In this document: positions 1 to 32,152 of the stretch, piece after piece
Layout of the letters: every line of letters begins with the position of its first letter
Position numbering within the stretch: the first letter of the stretch is position 1
Source of the DNA: a virus
DNA: 58,140 nucleotides
Virus record (IMG/VR): IMGVR_UViG_3300009103_000036
Coordinates: 1-58,140 of that record
Strand: one strand, 5' to 3'
The notes under the pieces: model-generated
What the model saw: only the letters and a program-made list of their open reading frames with translations
Databases searched by the model: none
What the model was told of the DNA's origin: nothing
Translations under genes and position numbers: made by a program

Positions 1-2315
1 GTGATCGCCATCTGTGCCCTTCCCTCAGCAAGTGCCTTCATTGTTGCAGACGATGTTGCCATTGAGGCGGCTGTTGCGCCCATTGAAGCAGTAACATACC
101 TTTGAATAACTGAAGCAATTAAAAGGCGCACCATTCCTGCAAGCATTCCCTGTAAAATTGGAATTCCAAAGAAATAGATGGCCAGCTTACCCCAATGCTC
201 TTTAAGCAGCTCGACAATCTTTGCAGAAATTTTCTCCCAAAGGGCACCCATCAGATTCATAAACGCATCTGCCATTGGAACCAAACCATCCATCAAGCCT
301 TGCTGCATTCTAGCAAGCCCCTCAGCAAATGGGCCTGCGCCCTCTGGAATTCCAATCTGAGTATCTCCTCGAAGCGCCCCTGCCATTGCGTTAAAGAATC
401 CCGCAAACATCTTTCCGATATTCTCTAAGGCAGATGCTATGATAAAACTCAGAGCGTTAAAAAACTTTCCAAGGCCATCTTTAAACTTACTTGCTGTGGA
501 TGGGCCAAAGAAATCAGTGAATGCCTTTTTAAGATTTTCAATTAAGACGGGAATCGCACGCTCAGGATCTGTGGAAAGCATCTTGAAGAAATCTCCAAAA
601 ACCCCCTCGATCTGTTTAAAGAGTGCCCGAGCCTTGGTGGGATTAAAGATCTCACCTAGCGCCTCAGCCATCTCTTTTACACCTGGAAAATAGTCAATGA
701 AGAGCTTGCCCACACGCTCACCTGACAGATAAAGCTCATTCATGGTTTTATCAATATCCAAGAAGGTGCTACTCATTGCCTTAACAGCACCCAACCTAAA
801 ACCCTTCATAAAGGTGGCCATGGCGCCCTGGCCGTCGACTAGTGTCTCAACAACCTTCTCCATCATCTTGGCCATTCGATCCATAGAATTGACCATTTTC
901 TCTTGTGGACTGAGCATCTTCTTGGTGGCATTTTTAATCTGATCCATGGTTTTTCCACGATTCTTCATAGAAAAGGCTAGTCGAGCTTCTTCAGCAGAGA
1001 GACCTGTATTTGCTGAGAGATGTCGAAGCTCAGCTGTGGTCATAGTATCAGCAGATTTCCCTGCAGCAAAGAAAGCTCTTCGAAGCTCTTCTAATGCCAT
1101 GATCGGGTCCTTATTAGCTGCCTTCATCATCTTCATAGCATCAATACTAACACCAAAAGCCTGTCCTAGCTTAGCAGCTGATGTGGCTGCATCCTCAAAG
1201 TTTAGATATTTATCAACAATTCCGCCTAACGATTTCACTTCAAGACCCAAAGATCGCAATCTTGCCACCGCCTCAGATGCCATCTTGGCTGTGATATTTC
1301 CGAAGTGACTTACATCGTTAACCATCTCGGCCATTCCCTTGGCGACCAGCTTAGCAGCGATGCCGATGCTATCCTCAATCTGGAGTGCGTAGGCCATAAA
1401 CTCATCGCCCACCTGTTTAAAGGTCTTTCCGGTGGCCAGGGTGATGTTAGCCAGCCCCTTCTGTTGTTCATAGGTCACACCAAAAGCCTTGTTTAGAAGA
1501 AACGAGGTATTGGCAACCTGTCGCATATTCTGGCCTGATAGATTTAGAGCGTCAACAAACTGCCCCAACCCCTGGGTCATCTCAAGTAATGCATTCTGTA
1601 GATCTGCAGACATGAACGCGAATAGATTCGCACCAGTCTCCCCTGCCATATCCTGCATTCCCTTCATCATCTGTGTGGCTGCAGCACCAGTGGCCCTTCC
1701 CAGATCACCTAATTCACCTCGCAATTTCTCTGTGGCTTGCATGATGGGCAGCAGGGCGTTAAACCACTCGTTTGCGGTCTTAATTAAACCGTTTAAAAAA
1801 TCAAGAGGAAATTTAACAATTGCTATTGCAAGATCAGTGATTGATGATATCACCTTTTTAACAAACTGGCCAAAAAGTTGAAGAGGTGCAAGAACCATCT
1901 TAAAACCCTTTGCGAATCCTGAGAGAAATCCTGTCCAAAAAGCAGCTTGCTTTGGTTTTTTATCAGACCAGGATTTAATAGAGTGTTTAACAAGCTCACT
2001 CATTGACTTTACCTGACCCAGCTTCTTGCTTAAAGCGGGAAGATTATTCGCCATCTTTTTGGTGCTATTTTGTCCTTCCTCTCCTGCTTTTTTTGCACTT
2101 TCAGTAACACCCTCAAAAGCATCGGCAAGCTTATTAACCTTTTCAACAGTGGAATCATAATCACAGTCCATCGCCTTGCACAACTCAATTTGCAAGGCTA
2201 ACTGCCTAGAAATTTTCTTCGTCCTATTCTGCAGAATCTGATTACCTGCAGCAAGAGACTTATTTAAGGCTTGACTGACCTTTAATTGGCCCGCAATATC
2301 ATCCTTAGAAGCCAT
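1..2315 (-). CDS. Tail tape measure protein (partial, 3' end missing)
   Basis: The reading frame is open from an ATG at 2315 to the left edge, giving about 771 residues, so the C-terminus is missing. The N-terminus (MASKDDIAGQLK) is followed by a basic, Gln/Asn-rich helical stretch. Long Ala/Met/Gly-rich helices with hydrophobic blocks follow, for example the region beginning GFLSGFAKGF and the last 60 residues. This is the texture of tape measure proteins, which set tail length and pass into the host membrane on ejection. Position fits: it lies directly downstream of tail chaperone-like genes and the tail tube. An AGGTGG Shine-Dalgarno precedes the ATG, and a GATATTTA element lies 31 bases upstream. 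It shows no obvious sequence match to T4 gp29, so the call rests on composition, length and context. Another large tail-interior protein is the alternative. Confidence 0.72.
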   Translation of the reverse strand, partial: MASKDDIAGQLKVSQALNKSLAAGNQILQNRTKKISRQLALQIELCKAMDCDYDSTVEKVNKLADAFEGVTESAKKAGEEGQNSTKKMANNLPALSKKLGQVKSMSELVKHSIKSWSDKKPKQAAFWTGFLSGFAKGFKMVLAPLQLFGQFVKKVISSITDLAIAIVKFPLDFLNGLIKTANEWFNALLPIMQATEKLRGELGDLGRATGAAATQMMKGMQDMAGETGANLFAFMSADLQNALLEMTQGLGQFVDALNLSGQNMRQVANTSFLLNKAFGVTYEQQKGLANITLATGKTFKQVGDEFMAYALQIEDSIGIAAKLVAKGMAEMVNDVSHFGNITAKMASEAVARLRSLGLEVKSLGGIVDKYLNFEDAATSAAKLGQAFGVSIDAMKMMKAANKDPIMALEELRRAFFAAGKSADTMTTAELRHLSANTGLSAEEARLAFSMKNRGKTMDQIKNATKKMLSPQEKMVNSMDRMAKMMEKVVETLVDGQGAMATFMKGFRLGAVKAMSSTFLDIDKTMNELYLSGERVGKLFIDYFPGVKEMAEALGEIFNPTKARALFKQIEGVFGDFFKMLSTDPERAIPVLIENLKKAFTDFFGPSTASKFKDGLGKFFNALSFIIASALENIGKMFAGFFNAMAGALRGDTQIGIPEGAGPFAEGLARMQQGLMDGLVPMADAFMNLMGALWEKISAKIVELLKEHWGKLAIYFFGIPILQGMLAGMVRLLIASVIQRYVTASMGATAASMATSSATMKALAEGRAQMAI

Positions 2316-2386: not shown

Positions 2387-2659
2387 CTAGAAAGGCCAGT
2401 CAATACCTAGCTTTGCCTCAAATTCTTGTGCAAGGCGATTCTTATTTTTATGCATCTTCATCACGGAGCCCAAAGACGCTCCAGTTCTATTCAGCTCATC
2501 ATAAAACTGCTTAGTTGCTATCAGAACATCTTTAAGTGAAGAAACCTTTTCTCCTGACCCGGTAATCTTTACACCAGACTCTAGACCCATGATAGTCGCA
2601 GCAATTGCTGATAACAATTTTTCTTCTAGGTTTCCCACTGTATCGATATCTTGCTCCAT
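2387..2659 (-). CDS. Small protein between tail chaperone and tape measure (unknown)
   Basis: This is a 90-residue protein starting MEQDIDTVGN and ending in IDWPF. I do not recognise the family. It is mostly helical and soluble, with no Cys, no signal peptide and no membrane segment. The start is well supported: AGGAG sits seven bases before the ATG, and a GATATTTA element lies 18 bases upstream, so it may be expressed independently of gp26. Its place between the gp26/chaperone pair and the tape measure gene suggests a tail assembly factor, for example a second chaperone for the tape measure. That role is inferred from position only. Confidence 0.7.
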   Translation of the reverse strand: MEQDIDTVGNLEEKLLSAIAATIMGLESGVKITGSGEKVSSLKDVLIATKQFYDELNRTGASLGSVMKMHKNKNRLAQEFEAKLGIDWPF

Positions 2660-2690: not shown

Positions 2691-2954
2691 TTAGGTAAAC
2701 CTTCTAAGCTTAGAGGGAACATTTGCTCGTGCCCTTCCCTGTAACGACCTCACATCAGGAGTGTTGTGGTGCGCTGCCCTAGAGGCACCGTCACCCTTCT
2801 CATTAGACTTTTGTATTTCTTGCCCAATCCTATTAATGAACCAAATACGATACGTGATGGGTATATTGTACACCTCTGAGTAGCTGAACCCACCGTAATA
2901 TGTCAATAAAAAGATGTGTTCAAGTATTGTTTCACGATACTCAGATGTCAGGCC
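2691..2954 (-). CDS. Tail assembly chaperone extension, probably made by frameshift from gp26 (gp51-like)
   Basis: An 87-codon frame begins at the slippery T7 run near the end of gp26 and ends at 2691. It contains no ATG. The only possible start, a TTG at 2906, has no Shine-Dalgarno. The residues upstream of that TTG (SEYRETILEHIFLL) run smoothly into YYGGFSYSEVYNIPITYRIW and FINRI. From memory this resembles the short chaperones next to tape measure genes: an aromatic YYGxF segment, a V/I-x-N-x-P turn, then an R-x-W/F-F-I-x-R helix. I therefore read it as the C-terminal half of a gp26 fusion, reached by a +1 (or -2) shift, as in the lambda G/GT arrangement. The tail half is basic and Ser/Ala-rich. 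Role (known for G/GT, inferred here): holding the tape measure before tube polymerisation. Confidence 0.68.
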   Translation of the reverse strand, partial: GLTSEYRETILEHIFLLTYYGGFSYSEVYNIPITYRIWFINRIGQEIQKSNEKGDGASRAAHHNTPDVRSLQGRARANVPSKLRRFT

Positions 2955-3789
2955 AAAAAAACGAGGCCCCTAAGGGCATCGACATGTGAGTCGCCTCCCC
3001 GCAAGCTGCGCAGTCAAACCAGGCCTTCATATCTACACCTGGTTCATTATCGTCTATGAACTTACGCAATGCTCTAGAGTCACGAGCAGGCATGTTCCTC
3101 ACGAAGGAAGCGATCTTATTACGATCGGTAACACCGTTAATATCAACAATGCTATAAAGAAGCTTGGAAGTTACCAAATTATCGCTTTGGTTCCCTAGCT
3201 TTCGGCGTCGCTCAGATTGAGTATTAATCTCTTCCTCATCGGCGCCTGTCAAAAATCTAAAGTTAACAACCTTTTTAGTAAAAGGAAGTGTAAAAGAAAA
3301 TAAATTCTTACCTGACTCAGCTGGAGGAATTGTCAAACGACTAATTGGAAGGTCTGAAAGATTGAATTCAAACTTTGTCTTTGTTGCACAGGAAGGACAT
3401 TCGACTTCTGTTGTATAATCGCTGCCATATCCGGTAATTCTTAATGCAACCATTACAGCATTTCGATCTCCAGATAACATTTCTTTGACATTGACTGATT
3501 TATCTGTTAGGCAAGATTCGATTAACTTGGTAATTACTGTTCCCTTTTTAATCAAGGCTCTCGATGTCAGAATATCCTCTTCTCTTGCAGTCATTGGACG
3601 AATATCCAGGGTCTCTTTAGCGTAAAGTGGACTGTCAGGGGGATATACAGAACCCAAAGAAGGAAGTGGGACTGATTCTGTTGGAATATCTAAACCAAAG
3701 TCATCCTTCATTACATTTCTAGGCTGAGCAGCACCGGGTAAACCGGGCCCTCCTCCAAATATATCATTTTCTGTTCTTTTCTTAGCCAA
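2941..3789 (-). CDS. 26: gp26-like tail/baseplate assembly protein with four-Cys zinc site
   Basis: This is about 282 residues from a TTG at 3789 that has GAGGAG seven bases upstream. A GTG at 3804 would add five residues but lies over that ribosome site. It resembles the T4 gp26 family (T4 base plate family). The N-terminal third is Gly/Pro-rich and variable. A helical core (LDIRPMTAREEDILTSRAL) is followed by C131-P-S-C134 within VECPSCATKTKF. The C-terminal FDCAACGE (C260, C263) completes a likely zinc-binding set just before the end. T4 gp26 was assigned to the baseplate hub, but its position before the tape measure and its overlap with the slippery run suggest it may be the G-like half of a tail chaperone. 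The two roles cannot be separated from sequence alone. Confidence 0.8.
   Translation of the reverse strand: MAKKRTENDIFGGGPGLPGAAQPRNVMKDDFGLDIPTESVPLPSLGSVYPPDSPLYAKETLDIRPMTAREEDILTSRALIKKGTVITKLIESCLTDKSVNVKEMLSGDRNAVMVALRITGYGSDYTTEVECPSCATKTKFEFNLSDLPISRLTIPPAESGKNLFSFTLPFTKKVVNFRFLTGADEEEINTQSERRRKLGNQSDNLVTSKLLYSIVDINGVTDRNKIASFVRNMPARDSRALRKFIDDNEPGVDMKAWFDCAACGEATHMSMPLGASFFWPDI
2955..2961 (-). promoter_or_regulatory. Putative slippery sequence for programmed frameshift (U7 run)
   Basis: The minus strand reads TCG TTT TTT TGG in the gp26 frame, a run of seven T that ends 11 bases before the gp26 TGA. Skipping one T, or slipping back two, enters the chaperone frame (TTT TTT GGC CTG ACA). 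A -1 slip meets TGA within three codons, so it would not help. The chaperone frame is closed by a TAG just upstream of the run and is open from there on, so the overlap of the two frames is centred on the run. Confidence 0.55.
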
Positions 3790-3839
3790 TTTTAAACTCC
3801 TCACACATTATTTGTCAGCTCTTATTAGACTGTGTATTA

Positions 3840-4235
3840 TTATACTCTACTAAAGATCAAGCTTTGTAAAACTCTGTCTTGATCTTGCTCAATCTTATTT
3901 TCGATACAATCAATGCAAAAGGTTGATCCATCAATATCATCTTTTTCGTGTTGCGCAATGACTGATTTAATCATTGCGTTAATTGTCTCTCGATCAGTCA
4001 GTCCATACGGATTTATGTCATAACATACCTCAGTAATTGTATTCTTTAACATATCGATAGAATCATGGACAGCTCTTAAATTTCCTCTTTTTCCGCATCC
4101 AATGCATTGAAATCCCGACTCTAAGAGTTTAGGAACTTCCCATTGTAAATATAAGAGGTCTTTTTCAAGGATTTCTTTTAAAACTTTATCTATGATCTCA
4201 GTAGAGATCGGCTTCCTTCGCTTCCAAATCGACAT
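3840..4235 (-). CDS. Small four-cysteine (zinc-ribbon-like) protein, unknown
   Basis: A 131-residue protein starting MSIWKRRKPI. Two CxxC pairs, C44/C47 (CIGC) and C107/C110 (CIDC), flank about 60 mostly helical residues, which suggests a single zinc site holding a helical domain. It carries a basic N-terminus, no membrane segment and no known catalytic motif. It sits between tail tube and gp26, with about 50 bases before gp26. A GATAAATA element on the minus strand lies 26 bases upstream of the start, close to the T4 late promoter consensus. I do not recognise the family. A structural or assembly role is suggested only by context. Confidence 0.72.
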   Translation of the reverse strand: MSIWKRRKPISTEIIDKVLKEILEKDLLYLQWEVPKLLESGFQCIGCGKRGNLRAVHDSIDMLKNTITEVCYDINPYGLTDRETINAMIKSVIAQHEKDDIDGSTFCIDCIENKIEQDQDRVLQSLIFSRV

Positions 4236-4260
4236 GCATCATTCCGAGTCGTGATATTAT

Positions 4261-4268
4261 TATTTATC
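4261..4268 (-). promoter_or_regulatory. Candidate T4-like late promoter GATAAATA
   Basis: The minus strand reads GATAAATA, one mismatch from the T4 late consensus TATAAATA, 26 bases upstream of the four-cysteine ORF and just downstream of the tail tube terminator. That is where a new transcription start would be expected. Promoter function is inferred. Confidence 0.4.
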
Positions 4269-4288
4269 CCTTAGCGAAAAATTAAGAT

Positions 4289-4316
4289 AAAAAAAAGCCC
4301 CTCTATGAAAGAGGGA
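4289..4316 (-). terminator. Rho-independent terminator after tail tube gene
   Basis: On the minus strand a CCCTCT/AGAGGG-type 6-bp stem with a five-base loop is followed by a run of eight T. It begins 31 bases after the tail tube stop. This would end the transcript from the tube (and possibly the sheaths) and keep the abundant tube message separate from the four-cysteine and gp26 genes. Confidence 0.8.
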
Positions 4317-4346
4317 CTTAATTCTTTTATTACTATGTCTAAAATT

Positions 4347-4835
4347 TTAGTACTGAAGAACAGCGTTGTCAAAGCGAAGTGTGAGAGAAATCTCAACCAT
4401 GTCGCTTCCATCGTAAGTCAGGTCATTAAAGTTTGCTTCGGTAATGAATGCTCCCTTAACATCCCAAAGCTCAACAACCGTTCCAACAGGATCAAGCAAC
4501 TTGATCTGAACATCTCGCTTATAGAAATCAGCATAACCAGCACGTCCTGACACAGATTCAAAGTGGGTACGTACCCATTCCATCACCTGTTGGGCGCCTG
4601 ATGGGGCGATTGGATCGTGCAGAGTCACTGACATCGTTCCGAATGTTGTCTTACCCGCAACATAACGGTGATGGTTGATCCACGGAATCGTGATCTCCTC
4701 AGTTGTGAATGTCGGACGTGCTGCCGTCTTCATTAAAAATGCGTCAACCCCCTCAATCATTAAGATCCACCGAAATTTTCTTTTCGGCTCAAACTTATTA
4801 GGGAGCATGTCGGTAACAGAGAGTGTTTCAGCCAT
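4347..4835 (-). CDS. 19: Tail tube protein (gp19 family)
   Basis: A 162-residue protein, almost the length of T4 gp19 (163). The N-terminal half (FEPKRKFRWILMIEGVDAFL) and the segment TEEITIPWINHHRYVAGKTTF match the tube fold, as does the later block VMEWVRTHFESVSGRAGYADFYKRD. The family forms stacked hexameric rings that make the inner DNA conduit. It lies immediately downstream of the two sheath genes, as in T4 (18 then 19), and is followed by a strong terminator, fitting a high-copy product. An AGGAG-like site precedes the ATG. Identification is confident. Confidence 0.95.
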   Translation of the reverse strand: MAETLSVTDMLPNKFEPKRKFRWILMIEGVDAFLMKTAARPTFTTEEITIPWINHHRYVAGKTTFGTMSVTLHDPIAPSGAQQVMEWVRTHFESVSGRAGYADFYKRDVQIKLLDPVGTVVELWDVKGAFITEANFNDLTYDGSDMVEISLTLRFDNAVLQY

Positions 4836-4906
4836 TTTTGGATTCTCCTAAATTATCTCGTCTTTTTTAATTATCTACCAGTTATAGAATCTACTGGACG
4901 GAAATC

Positions 4907-7900
4907 TTAAATTTCCGCTCCAGCATTTGTTACCACGAAGTCAAGCGAGATAAACTCGATGGTCCGGGTAGGTTGCAAGAAGATCTTTCCTCTCACAGTG
5001 TTATTTTCAACGTCAGCCTGTGTGGTTGTTGTTGAATCAATTACGACCTTGAATCTCTGCAGACCACTCTGATCTTGAACTCTCTGCAGAATTGGTTGAA
5101 CTAAACCGCTGAACTTAGAAAGTGTTGATTCACGATTTGGCTCGAATAGAATCTGATTTGACACAAGACGAACTTGACGTCTAATCTCAATCAATAGTCT
5201 TCTCACATTTACCCTGTCAAGAGAGCTCTGCGCTGCAAGTAGGGTCTTTTGACCCCAAACCACAACACCATCGCTTCCTGGAAAAGCTGTTAGAGGATTG
5301 ATATCAGCCTCGTAGAGAGTGTCCAGATTGTTTCTGGATAGATTCACCGATGCTTCTAAGGTAGATGCCAAGGCACCTCTTGTGAAGCCCGCAGGAGCAA
5401 ACCAGGGATGCGCAACCGAGTCATTTAAAGAAAACGCCCCAAGAACTGCCACAGAAGGTGGACATCTCACGTTACTTCCCAAGAAGGGATCTGGAATTGT
5501 CACGTCTGGGAAGTATGCGGAAGCGAAAGAAGTATCTAAGCCTCGATCCTTCAGCCTGTTCGCTGTATAATTTACACCAATCTTTTGATCTGCTGACGAT
5601 GTTACGACGTTATTCGCTGTATCCCTCTCTTCAATATCCATGATGTATAATGCATCAAATCGATCTTCAACCATATTGATAGCATAGTCAGTTACAGACT
5701 CATGTCGAATTCCAGGAATTGCCAAGAGCTTAATGTCAGCATCTGACTTGTCTTCAAGAATGTCAAGGGCCTTTCTATATGCCGCAACTGTGGGACCGCT
5801 AGTCTCACCTTGACCAGATTCACCCATCTCTCGAATTGCAGCAGAGTCAAGCATCCTTGACTTAGCCTTGTTAAAGATGTTAACACCATCAAAGCCTCCC
5901 TGCAAGAAGAAGGAGAACTTAGCGTACTTGCGAACCGTAAGATCACCGAAGTCCTTATCAACGGAAAGTGCTCGAGTCTTATTCGATTCATTTGGAGTGA
6001 TTCCTCCACCTCTTGCGTAAGAAGCAGTCAACCATTCCTTGGGATCGGCAATTCCATCTGATCCAGTTCTTACCTTAATGTTCTCAAGGGTGAACATGTT
6101 ATTGTTAAATCTATCTGCATCCAGAATTCCCTTGGTCGCTGAATCTGCAACTCCTGGATTATCCCCTACCCAAGCATTCTGCCATGAGGTGTGGAAATCT
6201 GGAAAATATTTCGAATGTCCTAGAATTGAATTATCAAAGACCACAGACTTGTTAGGTTCATTAACATCAGTCTGACGCATGAACTGTACACCCCAATAAA
6301 AAGATGAATTTACCACCTCTTTGGGATCTTCTCCAGTCTTGATGTGCAACCTCATCGGAACGGGCGGTTGAACTGCTCGTGTAAGAACATCCTTGTGATG
6401 ATAACTTCCTGAAGCTGTTAGTGTTGTTAAAGCACTTGTTCCAGAGGTTACCAGGTGTCGAACTCCTCGGAATCCAACGGGAAGCGCTGTCTCAGCAATC
6501 TCTCCATCATCAACTAGGTCTGACATCTCAACACGAATGTATTGTGATTTATTAGGGTGAATTCCGTCAACTACAATCTTCTGGGATCCAATCGCATGCT
6601 CAAAGTCAAAGTAAGTATTCACATCACCGATCATTCTAGCAATATAACGCTCTGACGAAGGATCAAGTGACAGACCTCGATATTGCTCTAATATTATCTT
6701 TTCACTATCAGAATCATAAAGGTCTCTAACTAAGAGGTCAAATCTTCCATAATCCGATGAATCAGAGGTAGACTTGGCAACGTTTGCAACGGAGATCTTA
6801 AACTTATCATTGGCATATGCACCGTCTGAGAGCGCGTGCACCCTAAATAGATTCTTTGCATTCCCACCAAATCTCTGAGAAATTACCCAAGGAGATCTTG
6901 CGTGCCCGTATCTCGTCTCAAAGTTCTCAAAGTTTGGAACGTCAGCTGCACCCTCATTTCTTGGCTTTGAACCTGTTGTGAGGAATGCAAGATCAGCAAA
7001 TTGTGCTCGCTCGCCAGCTGTAGCGACATAACGCTGCATAACGCCTAGACGTGTGAACCCTCCCGTTCCTGAGAGTATAACCGTTCCTGTAACAACGGCC
7101 ATCGCTGGATGGATATCATAGTTGGCGTAAAGATAATGTCCTGCCTCTTCAATCTTGAGAGGATCAGTGTTGAACACATTTGCATAATGATTAGCTGCGT
7201 CAACATCAAAAGAAGCTGTAATAACATTGGGATATTGACCTGTATTGACATGTCCGTTAATCAGCATTACAAATTCTTGCTTTGCATTGGCAATATTAAC
7301 TGACCCTGTTATATGGCCTCTAGGTCCTGCTGTTGTTGCTGCAACTCCCGCCTTGGGCATCTGTGACAGACCAACATTATGCCCAGAAAGCATCAAGGTC
7401 ACCTCATCAGGCGCCATCAAGACCCCTCTAATGATTGGATGAGCTCTCGAGTATATTCCCTGATGTTTTGCCTTCTGTGCTGATGTTCCGTTATTGTCCT
7501 GTCCAGCTGTTGCGATACCTGCGTCGGTAAAGACTGTCGATCCAGCTGACTGTGACATAAAGCAGCCTAAGAAGTACGTTCTACCACCAATAGCCGATGA
7601 AAGGGTATAAGGGTTCGCAGCCAACTTTCCGTTTGCTTGAACCTGCTCAGAACCTACAACAAATCCTGCATAGGTCACCTTACCGGTATTGTTTCCCGAT
7701 GTTGTCTTTTTCTTTCCATCGCCCGCGCCAAGAACGCGCATATAAACAACGGATTGAGCATTTCTTAACCACTCAACAACGGCTAATGGTCCAAACTTTT
7801 CACCATCTGTCTCACCAAATTTAGCTACAAAATCAGCTAATCTAGCCATCTCAACAGGTACAAATGCTGGGCCGCGAAGTGCGGTCCCAATAATACCCGC

Positions 7901-7990
7901 AGGGGTGCCAGAGGGAGAAATCCCCGTGGGTCCCGAGAGATCAATTTCTCTAGCGCTAACGCCAGCACTTTTGAATGTTAATTCAGGCAT
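4907..7990 (-). CDS. 18: Tail sheath protein, paralog A (gp18 family)
   Basis: 1027 residues, against 659 for T4 gp18. The N-terminus has the sheath hallmarks SAGVSAREIDLSG, SGTPAGIIGTALRGPAFVPV and FGPLAVVEWL. The C-terminal domain is also typical: PWFAPAGFTRGAL, LDRVNVRRLLIEIRRQV and a terminal TRTIEFISLDFVV strand. The extra length is in the middle, where protrusion domains of sheaths vary. It is clearly paralogous to the upstream gene 8027-11254 along its length, including motifs such as SDGAYANDKFKISVANV and FFLQGGFDGVNIF. Sheath subunits assemble around the tube and contract to drive it through the envelope. GGAG precedes the ATG. Only 36 bases separate it from paralog B, so the two are probably co-expressed. 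Confidence 0.95.
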   Translation of the reverse strand: MPELTFKSAGVSAREIDLSGPTGISPSGTPAGIIGTALRGPAFVPVEMARLADFVAKFGETDGEKFGPLAVVEWLRNAQSVVYMRVLGAGDGKKKTTSGNNTGKVTYAGFVVGSEQVQANGKLAANPYTLSSAIGGRTYFLGCFMSQSAGSTVFTDAGIATAGQDNNGTSAQKAKHQGIYSRAHPIIRGVLMAPDEVTLMLSGHNVGLSQMPKAGVAATTAGPRGHITGSVNIANAKQEFVMLINGHVNTGQYPNVITASFDVDAANHYANVFNTDPLKIEEAGHYLYANYDIHPAMAVVTGTVILSGTGGFTRLGVMQRYVATAGERAQFADLAFLTTGSKPRNEGAADVPNFENFETRYGHARSPWVISQRFGGNAKNLFRVHALSDGAYANDKFKISVANVAKSTSDSSDYGRFDLLVRDLYDSDSEKIILEQYRGLSLDPSSERYIARMIGDVNTYFDFEHAIGSQKIVVDGIHPNKSQYIRVEMSDLVDDGEIAETALPVGFRGVRHLVTSGTSALTTLTASGSYHHKDVLTRAVQPPVPMRLHIKTGEDPKEVVNSSFYWGVQFMRQTDVNEPNKSVVFDNSILGHSKYFPDFHTSWQNAWVGDNPGVADSATKGILDADRFNNNMFTLENIKVRTGSDGIADPKEWLTASYARGGGITPNESNKTRALSVDKDFGDLTVRKYAKFSFFLQGGFDGVNIFNKAKSRMLDSAAIREMGESGQGETSGPTVAAYRKALDILEDKSDADIKLLAIPGIRHESVTDYAINMVEDRFDALYIMDIEERDTANNVVTSSADQKIGVNYTANRLKDRGLDTSFASAYFPDVTIPDPFLGSNVRCPPSVAVLGAFSLNDSVAHPWFAPAGFTRGALASTLEASVNLSRNNLDTLYEADINPLTAFPGSDGVVVWGQKTLLAAQSSLDRVNVRRLLIEIRRQVRLVSNQILFEPNRESTLSKFSGLVQPILQRVQDQSGLQRFKVVIDSTTTTQADVENNTVRGKIFLQPTRTIEFISLDFVVTNAGAEI

Positions 7991-8026: not shown

Positions 8027-11000
8027 TCACACAAAGCTTGCACCCGTTCTATCAATTATAAAGTCGATTGCAATAAATTCAATTGTTCTGGTCGGAACCA
8101 CCACAATTCGTCCGTTCATCTTAAGCGCATCAACATCCTCAGCTGTATTATTTGTATCATCACAGATCACCTGGAATTTTTCAATTCCTGCCTGTGCCTG
8201 AACTAGAGCAAGGAGTGGTGCAACTTGACCTACAAATGCTGCTCGTGTTGCTGAAGTATTTTGTTCAAAGACGAATCTCTTTGCAACATTGATCACTAGG
8301 CGTTTAAGCTCTAGCATTAATCTCCGAACATTGACGCGATCCAATGCGGACTGAGTCTGTTGAAGCGTTTTTTGACCAAAAATCACATATCCGCTTCGGG
8401 GGAACGTTGCGATTGGATTCATTCTTGCATCGTATAGGGTATCTCTATCGTCTGTGTTCAATCGAACATCGACGTTGGATACCATCTCTAGAGCACCTCG
8501 ATTAAATCCTGCAGGCGCAAACCACGGATATGAAACTTTGTCATTAAACGCAAGCGCTGCAATCGCCGGAATAGACGGCGGAACTTTGACCTTCTTATTG
8601 TTGATAGGATCATCAATCCAAACATCAGGGAAGTACGTTGAGACATAATTGTTATCAATGGCGCGAGCCGCGAATTCCTCTGAAGTCTTTCTCACATTGG
8701 GTTTCGTCTTGTCATTGTCATAAAGACGGTTTCCATCCTCGTCATATTCAACTGGATCCATGACAAGAATTGACATGCCATTTTCTCTAACATTCTCTGC
8801 TGCATAATCAGTCACAAAAGTTGCTCGAATGCCAGGAATAGCAAGAATATTAACATTGACCATCATTTCATCTGTCATGATCTCAGATGCCTTTCTATAA
8901 GATGCTACTGAGTTATTCTGTTTTCCTGAACCTGCAACGTGAACTGCAGTTCCTGCTGTTCCAATTAATCCTGGTGACTTAGTTGCAGAAGCTGCTCCAC
9001 CATTTAAATCACTGGACGTAGCTTGATCGTTCATGTAGATATCATTCTTATCAAGCATGTTCACACCGTCAAATCCACCGTAGAAAAATGTACTGAACTT
9101 AGCATACTTGCTAAATCTATTAAAATAGACAGAAGACGTCGCTGCAACCAGAGTTGCCAAAGTCATTCTATTTCCCAGAACACCATCAGTTACTGTATAA
9201 TCTGTGGTGTTTGGTTCCGCATTTCTCACATATGCTGAATCTATCATATGTTCTTTAGCTGTTCCAGTAATATTGCTATTAATTGCAGCATCTACAGTCG
9301 TGGCAATCCTATTGGGTAACGCTACTCTTGCTAATGTAAATTTATTATTGTTAAACGCATCCATCGCAGAACCGGTCACAAGAGTATCAAGCTTTTCAAT
9401 ACCATTGAACTGAGCAAATGTCTTAATCAGAGGATTTGGGAGTGAGCCTGCGTTTGGATTTAATGCGGCCAATGAAACAGATCCTGTCTTTGGCATCCTC
9501 TCAAACTTCACACCCCAAAAAAATCTAGAATCAACCATTTCAGTTGAAGCAGACTTTCCTGAAAAGGAAGAATCATCTGCGGTATCTGGCATCGTTCCCT
9601 TAGTTACCTTAAATCTGAAAGGAACTGGAGGAACAATTGATCCTGTCAATGTTAGCAATCTAGCTTGAGACGCAGCAGTCGGGCTGTGTCCTCCCAAGCG
9701 ATTTGGCCCTGTCGATACCCACTTGTAGTCTGCGTGTACCCAGGCTGCTTTTGCTGTACCGTCTGTAAGCTTATCATTAGTCTTTAAAACGGGAATTCCT
9801 CTAAATCCAAAGGGCAGAGCGTCAGAAGGCACCTGCTTCTTATAAACGTCGTTGTTCATCACGACCCGCACATAATTTGATAAGTTTGGATACTTTCCAC
9901 TAACAACGACACGTCGATCATCCTCATCCTCTGCATCAAAGTTAAAGTATGCCTTATAATCACCAATCGCCTTGGCAATAAAACGATCACTATCAGGATT
10001 AAGATTTAAATCTTGATACTGCTCTAATGCCTGCATATCCGTGTCTGTATCATCAAATTTTCTAATTAAAACATTGAACTTGCCATATGGGTCAGCTTCA
10101 TTAGTTGATTTTCTAACATTATCAATCGATACCTTATATTGTGTATTCCCATAGGCGCCATCAGATAGTGTCTCAAAGTAAAATAAATCATTCTCAGCAT
10201 TGCCAAAAGGTTGTGAGATAAAATACGGTGTCCTCGGAGTGGTAAATCTTGTGTCAAATCTACCAAATGCATTTCTATGAATTCTTAATGTAGAATCTGA
10301 CTCCTTTGTCTTTTCAGAATAGTTAGCTGATCCTGATAACAAGCCCACTGTGCCTACAGCATCTGCTAAAACACCTGCCAGTTCATTCTCAACAGGATAA
10401 TCTGCAAAAAGATAGTGTTCTTCATCAATAAACTTCGTAGGATCTGTATTCAAAATTCTAGAAATATAATCATCATCATCAGGATTTAAGGACGCTGTTA
10501 AAACACGAACGCCTGCAACTGAATCGGTCGTAGCAAACCCTGAGCCCGAAGAGGAAGAGATTACTAACTTAAACTTTTCTTTTAAGTTTCTTGGGGCGGG
10601 AGATGCTCCACCGCCACCGATAACTGCAAGATCATCAACAGCTGTAGAAACCCAACCAGCTGCCTGAGCGGGTGTATCCTGATTCCAGTTTAGGATCCTC
10701 ATTGCAGTCCCACTAGGAACCATAATCACAGCACGTATAAGATTAATTGTGTCACCTGACGTCCAGTTTCCTGTACCAAAACTATCGTTATCAGTGAACA
10801 TCGGATTAGCAACAGCCTCTGAAGCTGAAAGGACATGTCTGGCAACAAGGAATTGAACGCCGCCAGAGTGTCGACCTCCTTCAAGTGCACCCATCGACGT
10901 GTCAGCCTTGCTTAAAACTCGAAAGCCTGCATTCTTGACTGTCCCCATGTTAATGGTGTTAGTCATGTCTGTGTCTGTATCATTTGCACCTGCACCAAGA

Positions 11001-11254
11001 ACACGACAATACGTCAGTGATTTCTTATGCTTTAGAAATTCACGAACCGCATAGGGTCCAAATCTATTTGCATCAAGACTACCAAATCTGGTCTTGAAAT
11101 CCTCAAAAGTTCCCACAGTTACAGGAACAAAGGCTGGGCCTTTTTCTGCTGTTCCAATTATACCCGCCGGCGTTCCGGTCGGCCCTTCAACCTGTGGCGC
11201 TAAATCAATCTCTCGTTCGAAAAAGCCAGGTGAGCGAAAAACTTGTTCTGCCAT
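8027..11254 (-). CDS. 18: Tail sheath protein, paralog B (gp18 family)
   Basis: 1075 residues. It shares the sheath signature with its neighbour: SPGFFEREIDLAP, TGTPAGIIGTAEKGPAFVPV, FGPYAVREFL, then PWFAPAGFNRGALE, LDRVNVRRLMLELKRLV and a terminal TRTIEFIAIDFII strand. Both copies keep complete N- and C-terminal domains, so neither looks like a decaying duplicate. The middle region differs more, with indels and a longer insertion around residues 540-800. AAGGAG lies upstream of the ATG and a GATATTTATAATG element about 51 bases upstream. Either copy could be the main sheath. One may form a special section such as the tail ends, or the two may alternate. Confidence 0.95.
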   Translation of the reverse strand: MAEQVFRSPGFFEREIDLAPQVEGPTGTPAGIIGTAEKGPAFVPVTVGTFEDFKTRFGSLDANRFGPYAVREFLKHKKSLTYCRVLGAGANDTDTDMTNTINMGTVKNAGFRVLSKADTSMGALEGGRHSGGVQFLVARHVLSASEAVANPMFTDNDSFGTGNWTSGDTINLIRAVIMVPSGTAMRILNWNQDTPAQAAGWVSTAVDDLAVIGGGGASPAPRNLKEKFKLVISSSSGSGFATTDSVAGVRVLTASLNPDDDDYISRILNTDPTKFIDEEHYLFADYPVENELAGVLADAVGTVGLLSGSANYSEKTKESDSTLRIHRNAFGRFDTRFTTPRTPYFISQPFGNAENDLFYFETLSDGAYGNTQYKVSIDNVRKSTNEADPYGKFNVLIRKFDDTDTDMQALEQYQDLNLNPDSDRFIAKAIGDYKAYFNFDAEDEDDRRVVVSGKYPNLSNYVRVVMNNDVYKKQVPSDALPFGFRGIPVLKTNDKLTDGTAKAAWVHADYKWVSTGPNRLGGHSPTAASQARLLTLTGSIVPPVPFRFKVTKGTMPDTADDSSFSGKSASTEMVDSRFFWGVKFERMPKTGSVSLAALNPNAGSLPNPLIKTFAQFNGIEKLDTLVTGSAMDAFNNNKFTLARVALPNRIATTVDAAINSNITGTAKEHMIDSAYVRNAEPNTTDYTVTDGVLGNRMTLATLVAATSSVYFNRFSKYAKFSTFFYGGFDGVNMLDKNDIYMNDQATSSDLNGGAASATKSPGLIGTAGTAVHVAGSGKQNNSVASYRKASEIMTDEMMVNVNILAIPGIRATFVTDYAAENVRENGMSILVMDPVEYDEDGNRLYDNDKTKPNVRKTSEEFAARAIDNNYVSTYFPDVWIDDPINNKKVKVPPSIPAIAALAFNDKVSYPWFAPAGFNRGALEMVSNVDVRLNTDDRDTLYDARMNPIATFPRSGYVIFGQKTLQQTQSALDRVNVRRLMLELKRLVINVAKRFVFEQNTSATRAAFVGQVAPLLALVQAQAGIEKFQVICDDTNNTAEDVDALKMNGRIVVVPTRTIEFIAIDFIIDRTGASFV

Positions 11255-29002: not shown

Positions 29003-32000
29003 CTAGCTTTTGACGTGAGAGTCCTTGCCTCTGCGATTGATATCAATGACATTATCAACCACATCTTTAACAGCATCTACGTGAGAAATAATTAAAATAT
29101 TTTTAAACCATCGCTTTAGTGATTCTAACAGTCGATTACATGCTTCAACATTCATCTCATCAAGCGTTCCAAAGCCCTCATCAATAACTAGCATATTAGT
29201 CTTGGGCAGTGAAGAAATATTAATCAAAGCAACTCTAATCGCTAGGGAAGAAAGCATCTTCTCCATTCCAGACGCAAGCTCTATTACTCTCCTTGAATCA
29301 CCGTAATTAATATAGATATCCATCGCATTAGAGTTTGCATCAGCTTCAAGCTCAACAGTAAAACCAACAGTATTTTGTAGAATCTTTGAAATCTCAGCAT
29401 TGATAACTGGAAGCTGTGTCATGATAATCTGTAAAGGTATTCCTTTTTTAGAAACAGCCTGCAAAAATAAATTATAAACCTTCCACTTCGTCTTAAGCTC
29501 TAAAAATTTATTCTTTTCCTGTCTAGTCATCTTTAGATCACTTTCAAGTTTTCCAACTGTCTGTGCAGTAGAAATTCTTTGTGCATCCAACTCATTAATC
29601 TCACTGTTCAATAAGATCATTTCATTCTTAATCATCTGAACATTGTCATCAATATTTTCGCTAGTAACTCTTGCCTGCATGTCTCTTAAACCAGCTTTTG
29701 CATCTACGGTTTGGCTCTTTAAAGTCGTCAATCTTGATTGAAGGTTATGTTGATGCAGTCCCTCTTCTGACAAAAGAATTCTCTGATCAGACTCTTTTTT
29801 TAAGATATCATCATATCTTCGAACCTTTTCTCCTAGCTTTTCTTTTTGAAGATTTTCTATTGCTCTCTGCGCCGCGCCTGTCTCATCTAGCAGCTTTAAT
29901 ACGGACTCTTTTTGATCAGATACTAAACCCTTGTTCTCATGCGAATCTTTAATAAATCGACATGTTGGAAATGAATCACCACAAGGAATTCCCTCTAACT
30001 TTTTAATTGATCGTTCTTGATTTTTAAGAAGCGCTAGCTCTCTCTCATAATCTGATCTTATCTTAATTAAAAATTTCTCAAGACTCTGTTGTGATTGAAT
30101 CTTTTCTCGAAGCTCTTCAATGGGAAATTGGGACTTGAATATTTCAATTTTTTTAATCTTATCCCCAATCTCATCTAATTTTTTCTTTGACTTCTTAATT
30201 GACTTATTAGTTTCTTTAACATTTTCAACAAGATTTTCTAATGTTTCTCGTTGTCGAATAACGTCATCAGGTGTAATCACATCATCATTAGTGTGCTTGG
30301 CAATCTCTAGCTGTAAATTGTGATAGTGAAGGCGCTTTTGATTAATGTCACGCTCGTACTTTTTAATCTCATCCCTTTTCTCAGCTGTTTTATTTTTTAA
30401 ATCAAAAATAATTACATCCCACTCTCTATCAGGAACATTTGACATCTGGGCTTTAATCGCTGCTGATTCATCCTTGGCAAGTTGAGACATTTTTTCAAAT
30501 ACATTTAGATCTAAAAACTTTGTTAAAATTAGCTTTCTAGAAGTCGCACGTTCTTTTATAAACGTGTTCATTTCTCCTTGTGAGGCAAGCGAAGTCATTA
30601 AAAAATCTTCAGACGTTCCAATCTTTCTTCTAACAACTTTTTCTGTCTCTCTTCTTTGCTCTTCAGTAAGATCTCTAATGATCTCACCATTCTCGTTGAT
30701 TTGAAAAAAGTTTAAGTGAGTTGTGGCATTAACCTGGCCTCGACGATTTTCGTGTTTTACCGATTGCCTTTCAAGCCGATAATTTTTTCCATTGATCATT
30801 AAATCAACTGCGGCCTTGCAATGACCTTTTCTTGTGTTAATAATGTGAAGATTTTTAATCGGACCCCTATCTGTAGTATTGTAAAGACAATACATTATAG
30901 TTCCAACAATAGAAGATTTTCCGCATCTATTTGGCCCAAATATTCCAGTAATTCCTCTTAGTGTATTAAAATCAATTTGATTATTTTTTCCAAAAGCAAA
31001 CGTATTGTCAAATGATACATTCTTAATAGTCCACTTAGTATTTCTAGAAATATCATCAGACTTTGAGGTTTGAGACAAATATAATCTAATTAACTCTTCT
31101 AGCTTAGTCCATTCCTCGTCACTCAAACTAGCATTCTCATAATAGCTTTTAAAAAGACTTACATGAGTATTAAAATCTCTTAAATCTTCATTGAATGCAC
31201 CTGTTCGATCAACTTTGATTTTTCCCGCATCAAGATCATCATCAATTTTATAAACAATCTCAGATGCATTTTTTATGTGTTTTAATTCAGAGTGAAGATG
31301 AATAATATCAGATTGAGGAATTGCTGTATTTGATCTGACTCTAAATCTTGAACCATCAGGTATTTTATTGGCTGTAGATATTGTCTTCTTAACAGTTCCT
31401 TTCCAATCTATAGTAACAAACGGCTTGTAGTGAGGAATCTGATGAAACTCTACATTAAAGTTATCTTTTCCTCGAATGTCCCAGCAGAGAAATCCTTTTC
31501 CGGGTGATTCTCCATAATTTTGTTGTATTGAAGAACCACAGTAAGCAATCGTTTTATCTTCATTTAAAAATTGACAAGTATGAATATCACCCAAGAGAGC
31601 AAAATCAAACTTATCAAAAAAATCAACTGTTGCCTCTCCTTCAATTGACCAGTCAGAATCTGTTTTTGAACCTAAGACACCTCCGTGAAACAGCGCAATA
31701 TTCACTTCATTGTCAACTGGAAGAACAGACTCCCAACCTAACTCATCAAAACAAGAAAAAACACACCAATTAATTCCAGGAATCCCTGTCGGATAGGTTC
31801 CTGACTGTTTATAGAGGTGTAACCGATCATTATTGAGAGCGGTAATAATTGGGCTTATTGCATCTTGTCTGTGCTTATTTAAAATGAGTCCATCATGATT
31901 TCCAAGAATAATATGAGTTGGGGCAATTTCAGCTAAACCTGTAAACCACCAGTTGAGAATATCAATTAACTCAGGTGAAATTCCCTGAGTTTTAGAATGC

Positions 32001-32152
32001 ACAATATCCCCACCGATATAAATCAAATCGGGTCTTAGTCGTCTTGCTATCTCAAAGAATTCAGTAAATGATTCTTTGTACTCATCGTGGCGTGTTAAGC
32101 CCCTAAAATGAATGTCAGCAAGGTGTAAAATCCTAGCGCTTTTTTTGATCAT
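29003..32152 (-). CDS. Mre11-Rad50 (gp47-gp46) fusion: nuclease plus SMC-type ATPase in one chain
   Basis: 1049 residues. The first ~340 carry all Mre11/SbcD phosphoesterase motifs: DIH (13-15), GGDIVH (47-52), GNHD (84-87), FHGG (155-158) and GDIH (188-191). The rest is Rad50/SbcC: Walker A GPNRCGKSS (406-414), Q-loop SLASQGEM, a long coiled coil, a zinc-hook-like turn with C724 and C731, signature LASGMEKM (959-966), Walker B MLVIDEGFGTLDE (987-999) and an ISH switch (1022-1024). The hook is C-x6-C rather than the usual CxxC. In T4 and in bacteria the two halves are separate genes (47 and 46; sbcD and sbcC). The complex resects DNA ends for recombination-dependent replication. No stop or internal start interrupts the joint at about residues 340-370. 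Confidence 0.93.
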   Translation of the reverse strand: MIKKSARILHLADIHFRGLTRHDEYKESFTEFFEIARRLRPDLIYIGGDIVHSKTQGISPELIDILNWWFTGLAEIAPTHIILGNHDGLILNKHRQDAISPIITALNNDRLHLYKQSGTYPTGIPGINWCVFSCFDELGWESVLPVDNEVNIALFHGGVLGSKTDSDWSIEGEATVDFFDKFDFALLGDIHTCQFLNEDKTIAYCGSSIQQNYGESPGKGFLCWDIRGKDNFNVEFHQIPHYKPFVTIDWKGTVKKTISTANKIPDGSRFRVRSNTAIPQSDIIHLHSELKHIKNASEIVYKIDDDLDAGKIKVDRTGAFNEDLRDFNTHVSLFKSYYENASLSDEEWTKLEELIRLYLSQTSKSDDISRNTKWTIKNVSFDNTFAFGKNNQIDFNTLRGITGIFGPNRCGKSSIVGTIMYCLYNTTDRGPIKNLHIINTRKGHCKAAVDLMINGKNYRLERQSVKHENRRGQVNATTHLNFFQINENGEIIRDLTEEQRRETEKVVRRKIGTSEDFLMTSLASQGEMNTFIKERATSRKLILTKFLDLNVFEKMSQLAKDESAAIKAQMSNVPDREWDVIIFDLKNKTAEKRDEIKKYERDINQKRLHYHNLQLEIAKHTNDDVITPDDVIRQRETLENLVENVKETNKSIKKSKKKLDEIGDKIKKIEIFKSQFPIEELREKIQSQQSLEKFLIKIRSDYERELALLKNQERSIKKLEGIPCGDSFPTCRFIKDSHENKGLVSDQKESVLKLLDETGAAQRAIENLQKEKLGEKVRRYDDILKKESDQRILLSEEGLHQHNLQSRLTTLKSQTVDAKAGLRDMQARVTSENIDDNVQMIKNEMILLNSEINELDAQRISTAQTVGKLESDLKMTRQEKNKFLELKTKWKVYNLFLQAVSKKGIPLQIIMTQLPVINAEISKILQNTVGFTVELEADANSNAMDIYINYGDSRRVIELASGMEKMLSSLAIRVALINISSLPKTNMLVIDEGFGTLDEMNVEACNRLLESLKRWFKNILIISHVDAVKDVVDNVIDINRRGKDSHVKS

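Follow-up and report, generated by a model that had tools for sequence, protein, structure and literature searches.

In all likelihood, the gp26-family locus of the window, the 58,140-nt stretch of DNA comprising IMG/VR virus record IMGVR_UViG_3300009103_000036, codes for a tail assembly chaperone made as two products in the manner of lambda G/GT, with T4 gp26 as the underlying fold. In lambda, G and GT are tail assembly chaperones that arise through a −1 shift on the G-T pair ahead of the tape measure gene. In the window, as in what appear to be hundreds of relatives, a +1 shift very likely occurs at the end of gp26: the tRNA on UUU or CUU in the P site would pair anew with UUU while UGG occupies the A site. 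The proposed frameshift, which would join gp26 to a start-less extension as the first-pass annotation had suggested, draws support from its conservation across three independent collections, from a switch of selective constraint at a T run and from equivalent sites in distant gp26 relatives.

The gene, a member of the T4 gp26 family, lies on the minus strand (3789-2941), and its orientation in the first-pass annotation is corrected here accordingly. Translation probably starts at TTG 3789, which is preceded by GAGGAG, to give a G-like frame 0 product of 282 aa (2944..3789). This protein matched PF12322 (T4_baseplate) with an E-value of 6.6e-17 and a score of 62.4 bits, above the curated cut-off of 24.5 along the domain, and phrog_150 with an E-value of 6e-22. 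It contains two CxxC knuckles, CPSC and CAAC, which T4 gp26 also has and which possibly form a zinc ribbon. To our knowledge, such knuckles are not known from lambda-type G proteins.

The locus occupies the position expected of a G/GT pair, between a tail tube gene upstream (4347..4835, minus strand; phrog_4542, E 1.5e-30) and a candidate tape measure gene (3..2315, minus strand; 771 aa, running off the window). The former was assigned by its phrog_4542 match and the latter by position, size and the annotation of relatives rather than by homology. The candidate had no match in a PHROG search, and the genes at its position in immuto and LIS04 are annotated as tape measure genes. A 90-aa ORF (2387..2659, minus strand) between the extension and the tape measure candidate matched nothing in family and profile searches. 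A 131-aa ORF with CxxC pairs (3840-4235), for which no family was found, lies between the tail tube gene and gp26.

On the minus strand, the 3′ end of gp26 reads GGG GCC TCG TTT TTT TGG CCT GAC ATC TGA. The run of seven T residues (2961-2955) ends 11 bases ahead of the TGA (2943-2941), as described earlier. Within the slip site TTT TTT TGG (2953..2961), TTT is read as the P-site codon (2958-2956) and TGG as the A-site codon (2955-2953); a +1 shift would make GGC (2954-2952) the next codon. In the +1 frame, a closing TAG (2970..2972) stands 14 nt before the P-site codon and so narrows the stretch available to an independent start. From the run onward this frame is open for 87 codons without an ATG (2954-2694), and ends in TAA (whole extension 2691..2954, minus strand). 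The first-pass account of this frame thus held, including its TTG (2906) lacking a Shine-Dalgarno sequence; a further start, GTG (2873), likewise has none. The same account had placed the conserved residues upstream of the TTG. That is so for GLTSEYRETILEHIFL, but YYGGFSYSEVYNIP and RIWFINRI lie downstream, and conserved residues are therefore found on both sides.

The alignment of relatives that had been proposed as a check was performed with 83 loci, comprising 80 IMG/VR relatives, Microcystis phage Mel-JY01, Flavobacterium phage immuto and the window. All 83 carried TTY-YTT-TGG-CC at the end of gp26. Three classes of site were present: TTT TTT TGG (63 loci), TTT CTT TGG (17) and TTC TTT TGG (3). 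The motif is TTTTTTTGGCCT in the window and TTTCTTTGGCCT in the natural CTT version. Among the 70 non-redundant loci, defined as those below 90% identity, TTC TTT TGG occurred in three. In a codon-bias test on this set, the P-site Phe codon was TTT in 55 of 55 cases against a background of 58% (p 1e-13), and the Pro codon following TGG was CCT in 69 of 70 against a background of 34% (p 1e-31). The junction was also matched independently in 76 of 80 Mel-JY01 relatives, was found independently in immuto and is carried by bacterial MAG contigs. YUU UGG CCU adds a conserved +1 motif to the known recoding sites. Rare variants (L276, L292, L275 and L295) have other A-site codons (TTT TTC, TTT TAC and TTT CGG) and keep the +1 extension; UGG is therefore not essential.

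In each locus with enough sequence, the +1 frame coded for the same homologous C-terminal domain from the first codon past the slip, with the consensus GLTPxDKExxLExxFxLMYYxGFSYxExYNxPxxxRxWFIxR in the relatives. Of 50 extension sequences, 34 matched DUF6760 (PF20546) at E ≤ 0.1, the best with an E-value of 1.1e-7; the window's own extension scored 17 bits against a curated cut-off of 27. In the stretch that separates the gp26 stop from the earliest ATG available, pN/pS was 0.30 in the +1 frame versus 1.53 and 1.02 in the other frames, which indicates that the +1 frame is translated ahead of any start. Upstream of the run, constraint lay in frame 0 (pN/pS 0.31). Precisely at the run, selective constraint thus passes from frame 0 to the +1 frame.

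The first-pass annotation had left the direction of the shift at +1 or −2, having set aside −1. The latter judgement holds: the −1 frame of the window meets a stop at once (VFLA*), leaving no open −1 frame for a heptamer of the type X XXY YYZ. A Mu-like −2 shift on the T run would enter the same frame as +1, and the TTTTTTT class would permit the P-site UUU to re-pair on UUU two bases back. At TTC TTT TGG, in contrast, a −2 shift would set Phe-tRNA on CUU, with a C-A mismatch at the first position, so that re-pairing two bases back does not extend to all relatives. Every variant allows +1, because a P-site UUU or CUU can pair on UUU. At TTT CTT TGG, found in 15 of the 70 non-redundant loci, a +1 shift takes CUU to UUU, as in the prfB site, and the sites of distant relatives, NCC CGA and TTT CNN, also suit +1. 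We therefore consider a −2 shift improbable and strongly infer that the slip is +1.

Three further readings dispense with a ribosomal shift. The T-like region might be a separate gene coupled to gp26, starting at TTG 2906 or, in relatives, at an internal ATG. Most relatives do have an ATG in the +1 frame some 55-64 nt after the slip, and in cyanophage S-PM2 the annotation lists 'gp51' as a gene of its own, 57 aa long. However, this ATG is the first one, falls within the central part of the conserved domain and rarely has a Shine-Dalgarno sequence, whereas purifying selection acts in the +1 frame on the residues that precede it. In one locus, L075, not a single start codon occurs between the +1 stop and a point 120 nt beyond the slip. 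Neither would a separate start account for the fixed wobble bases of gp26, and we give this reading very little weight. Initiation at the internal ATG about 55 nt after the slip may possibly yield an extra product in many relatives. Slippage of the polymerase rather than the ribosome could likewise produce a fusion mRNA, polymerases being prone to slip on homopolymers such as T7. Against this, the extension stays in +1 at TTT CTT TGG, TTC TTT TGG, NCC CGA and TTT CNN, none of which contains a long homopolymer, and transcriptional slippage appears about as improbable as a separate gene. A sequencing error or a decayed fusion gene has a negligible probability: the same junction recurs in 83 loci, from independent assemblies and cultured phage genomes, with purifying selection in both frames, and this conservation rules out both readings.

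Under the favoured +1 mechanism, most ribosomes would stop at the gp26 TGA and release the short G-like protein. A minority would pause while Phe-tRNA holds UUU in the P site and UGG waits in the A site; a forward slip of one base, in which UUU re-pairs on the overlapping UUU, would then make GGC the next codon read. The product of the shift would be gp26 carrying an 87-aa T-like domain, helical in structure, at its C-terminus. If lambda is a guide, the tape measure protein would be coated by the short form, and the fusion would bring in tail tube subunits and so start growth of the tube. The locus resembles lambda G/GT in its predicted short and extended products from one start, in its place between tube and tape measure genes and in its small C-terminal T part. 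It differs in the direction of the shift (+1 rather than −1) and in its larger, gp26-family G part of 282 aa with CxxC knuckles, the two G parts having no demonstrated sequence match.

The first-pass annotation had also recast gp26 as a tail chaperone. Its place as one half of a pair is borne out by conservation and constraint; the tail-assembly-chaperone function of gp26 and its extension we infer from the location and architecture of the locus together with a weak match in fold. AlphaFold models were made of gp26 and the T domain separately. The T domain model was helical, most of the first 50 residues having a pLDDT of about 90. The gp26 model aligned with the HK97 tail assembly chaperone 2ob9 over 93 of 104 residues (Z 4.6, 3.8 Å), and Foldseek gave an E-value of 4.2 (prob 0.16); the match is weak and level with one other chain. 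The locus position, the helical T domain and the weak HK97 fold match all agree with a chaperone role. Counting against a pure chaperone, some groups have reported T4 gp26 as a hub component (PMC3004832). A sequence search of solved structures yielded nothing meaningful. P2 E′ had no profile match to the T domain of the window group; it matched the T profile of the BRock group, and that group alone, at 67%.

The gp26 family contains other shift sites. In SP-15, LIS04 and GXN1, the extension is in +1 at NCC CGA, and BRock-type loci have TTT C in 15 of 15 with the extension in +1; the +1 sites of Thornevirus and BRock-type phages differ from that of the window. The cyanophages carry T TTT TTC, the −1 heptamer U UUU UUC, at a fixed 9 nt before the gp26 stop in 80 of 80 loci (36/36 non-redundant, p 3e-38), and there the T domain lies in an open −1 frame. 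Eighteen of these 80 loci (11 distinct) have no start codon between the slip and the core of the domain. The jumbo phages 121Q, PA5oct and Atu_ph07 (L090, L091 and L093) end their gp26 with T TTT TTC and continue with an extension in −1; two of them additionally possess an overlapping ATG. T-domain profiles linked the window, Mel, cyanophage and SP-15 groups as well as 121Q, with scores about twofold or more above the best column-shuffled control. The BRock and window T domains matched at just 4% in a profile comparison, so that homology of the former rests on position. On this reading, the protein is unannotated or entered as separate genes in many gp26-family phages.

In T4, gp26 and gp51 are hub assembly chaperones, and gp51 is essential. 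A PF12322 search of T4 found both proteins (3803-4429 and 4480-5229 in NC_000866, our L085). An extra C-terminal domain is present in gp51 only, which extends about 45 residues beyond the PF12322 domain. This tail matched the cyanophage T profile at 91%, with a score of 33 versus at most 12 in shuffles, and gp51 spans phrog_634, the family of the 57-aa cyanophage 'gp51'. Compared directly, the gp51 C-terminus did not match the window T domain (0.08%), and the link between the two therefore runs only via the cyanophage profile. On this profile evidence, T4 gp26 would be G and gp51 would be GT, generated by gene duplication as T4's equivalents of lambda G/GT. The T4 pair shares PF12322 with the window gp26, but is encoded by two genes with divergent transcription rather than by a single gene with a shift. 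It is fairly probable that the T4 gp26 superfamily as a whole represents the G/GT tail chaperone of T4-like, cyano-, Thornevirus-, BRock-type and some jumbo myophages, in which the same logic would be served by +1 sites of three or more kinds, by a −1 heptamer and, in T4, by duplication in place of the shift.

A 2016 review called T4 an exception to G-T frameshifting (PMC5009743), and the function of gp51 has been described as unknown (PMC3004832). We found no earlier statement of gp26 as G and gp51 as GT in the literature searched, which mostly excluded subscription journals. If the assignment is true, T4 would no longer be an exception and gp51 would acquire a definite task, namely to initiate tail tube assembly on gp29, the tape measure protein. 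A duplication of the kind proposed for T4 has been described in phage 0305phi8-36, whose gp143/gp144 form a two-gene tail chaperonin, G and GT, without a frameshift (PMC2147016). The window, by contrast, would use a shift.

The site itself can be compared with known +1 sites. In bacteria, prfB contains the +1 frameshift site CUU_UGA. Others are UCC_UUU_CGU of influenza and TTT-CGC of the halovirus HF1, the latter proposed for a tail chaperone pair (PMC7230728). As proposed for the window, these sites combine a forward slip from a P-site UUU or CUU with an A-site codon that is read slowly. The window site differs in that its A-site UGG is followed by an almost invariant CCT, with neither a stop codon nor a Shine-Dalgarno stimulator. 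The HF1 site resembles the BRock-type TTT C site.

No Shine-Dalgarno-like stimulator was conserved upstream of the slip among the 70 non-redundant loci, in which the base after a conserved GG is variable. Downstream, no conserved stimulatory RNA structure was found. Folding z-scores 40-110 nt from the slip averaged about −1 to −1.7, lower than elsewhere; this additional folding is weak, and the individual structures change from locus to locus, with the near-palindrome ATGTACTACATG, which encodes MYYM, a frequent component. We therefore do not claim an RNA element, and the additional folding is probably due largely to the near-palindromic MYYM codons.

Elsewhere in the window, two adjoining ORFs of 1027 and 1075 aa (4907-7990 and 8027-11254) resemble tail sheath paralogues. 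A single 1049-aa ORF (29003-32152) combines an SbcD-like phosphoesterase part with an SbcC-like part, corresponding to the functions of T4 gp47/gp46.
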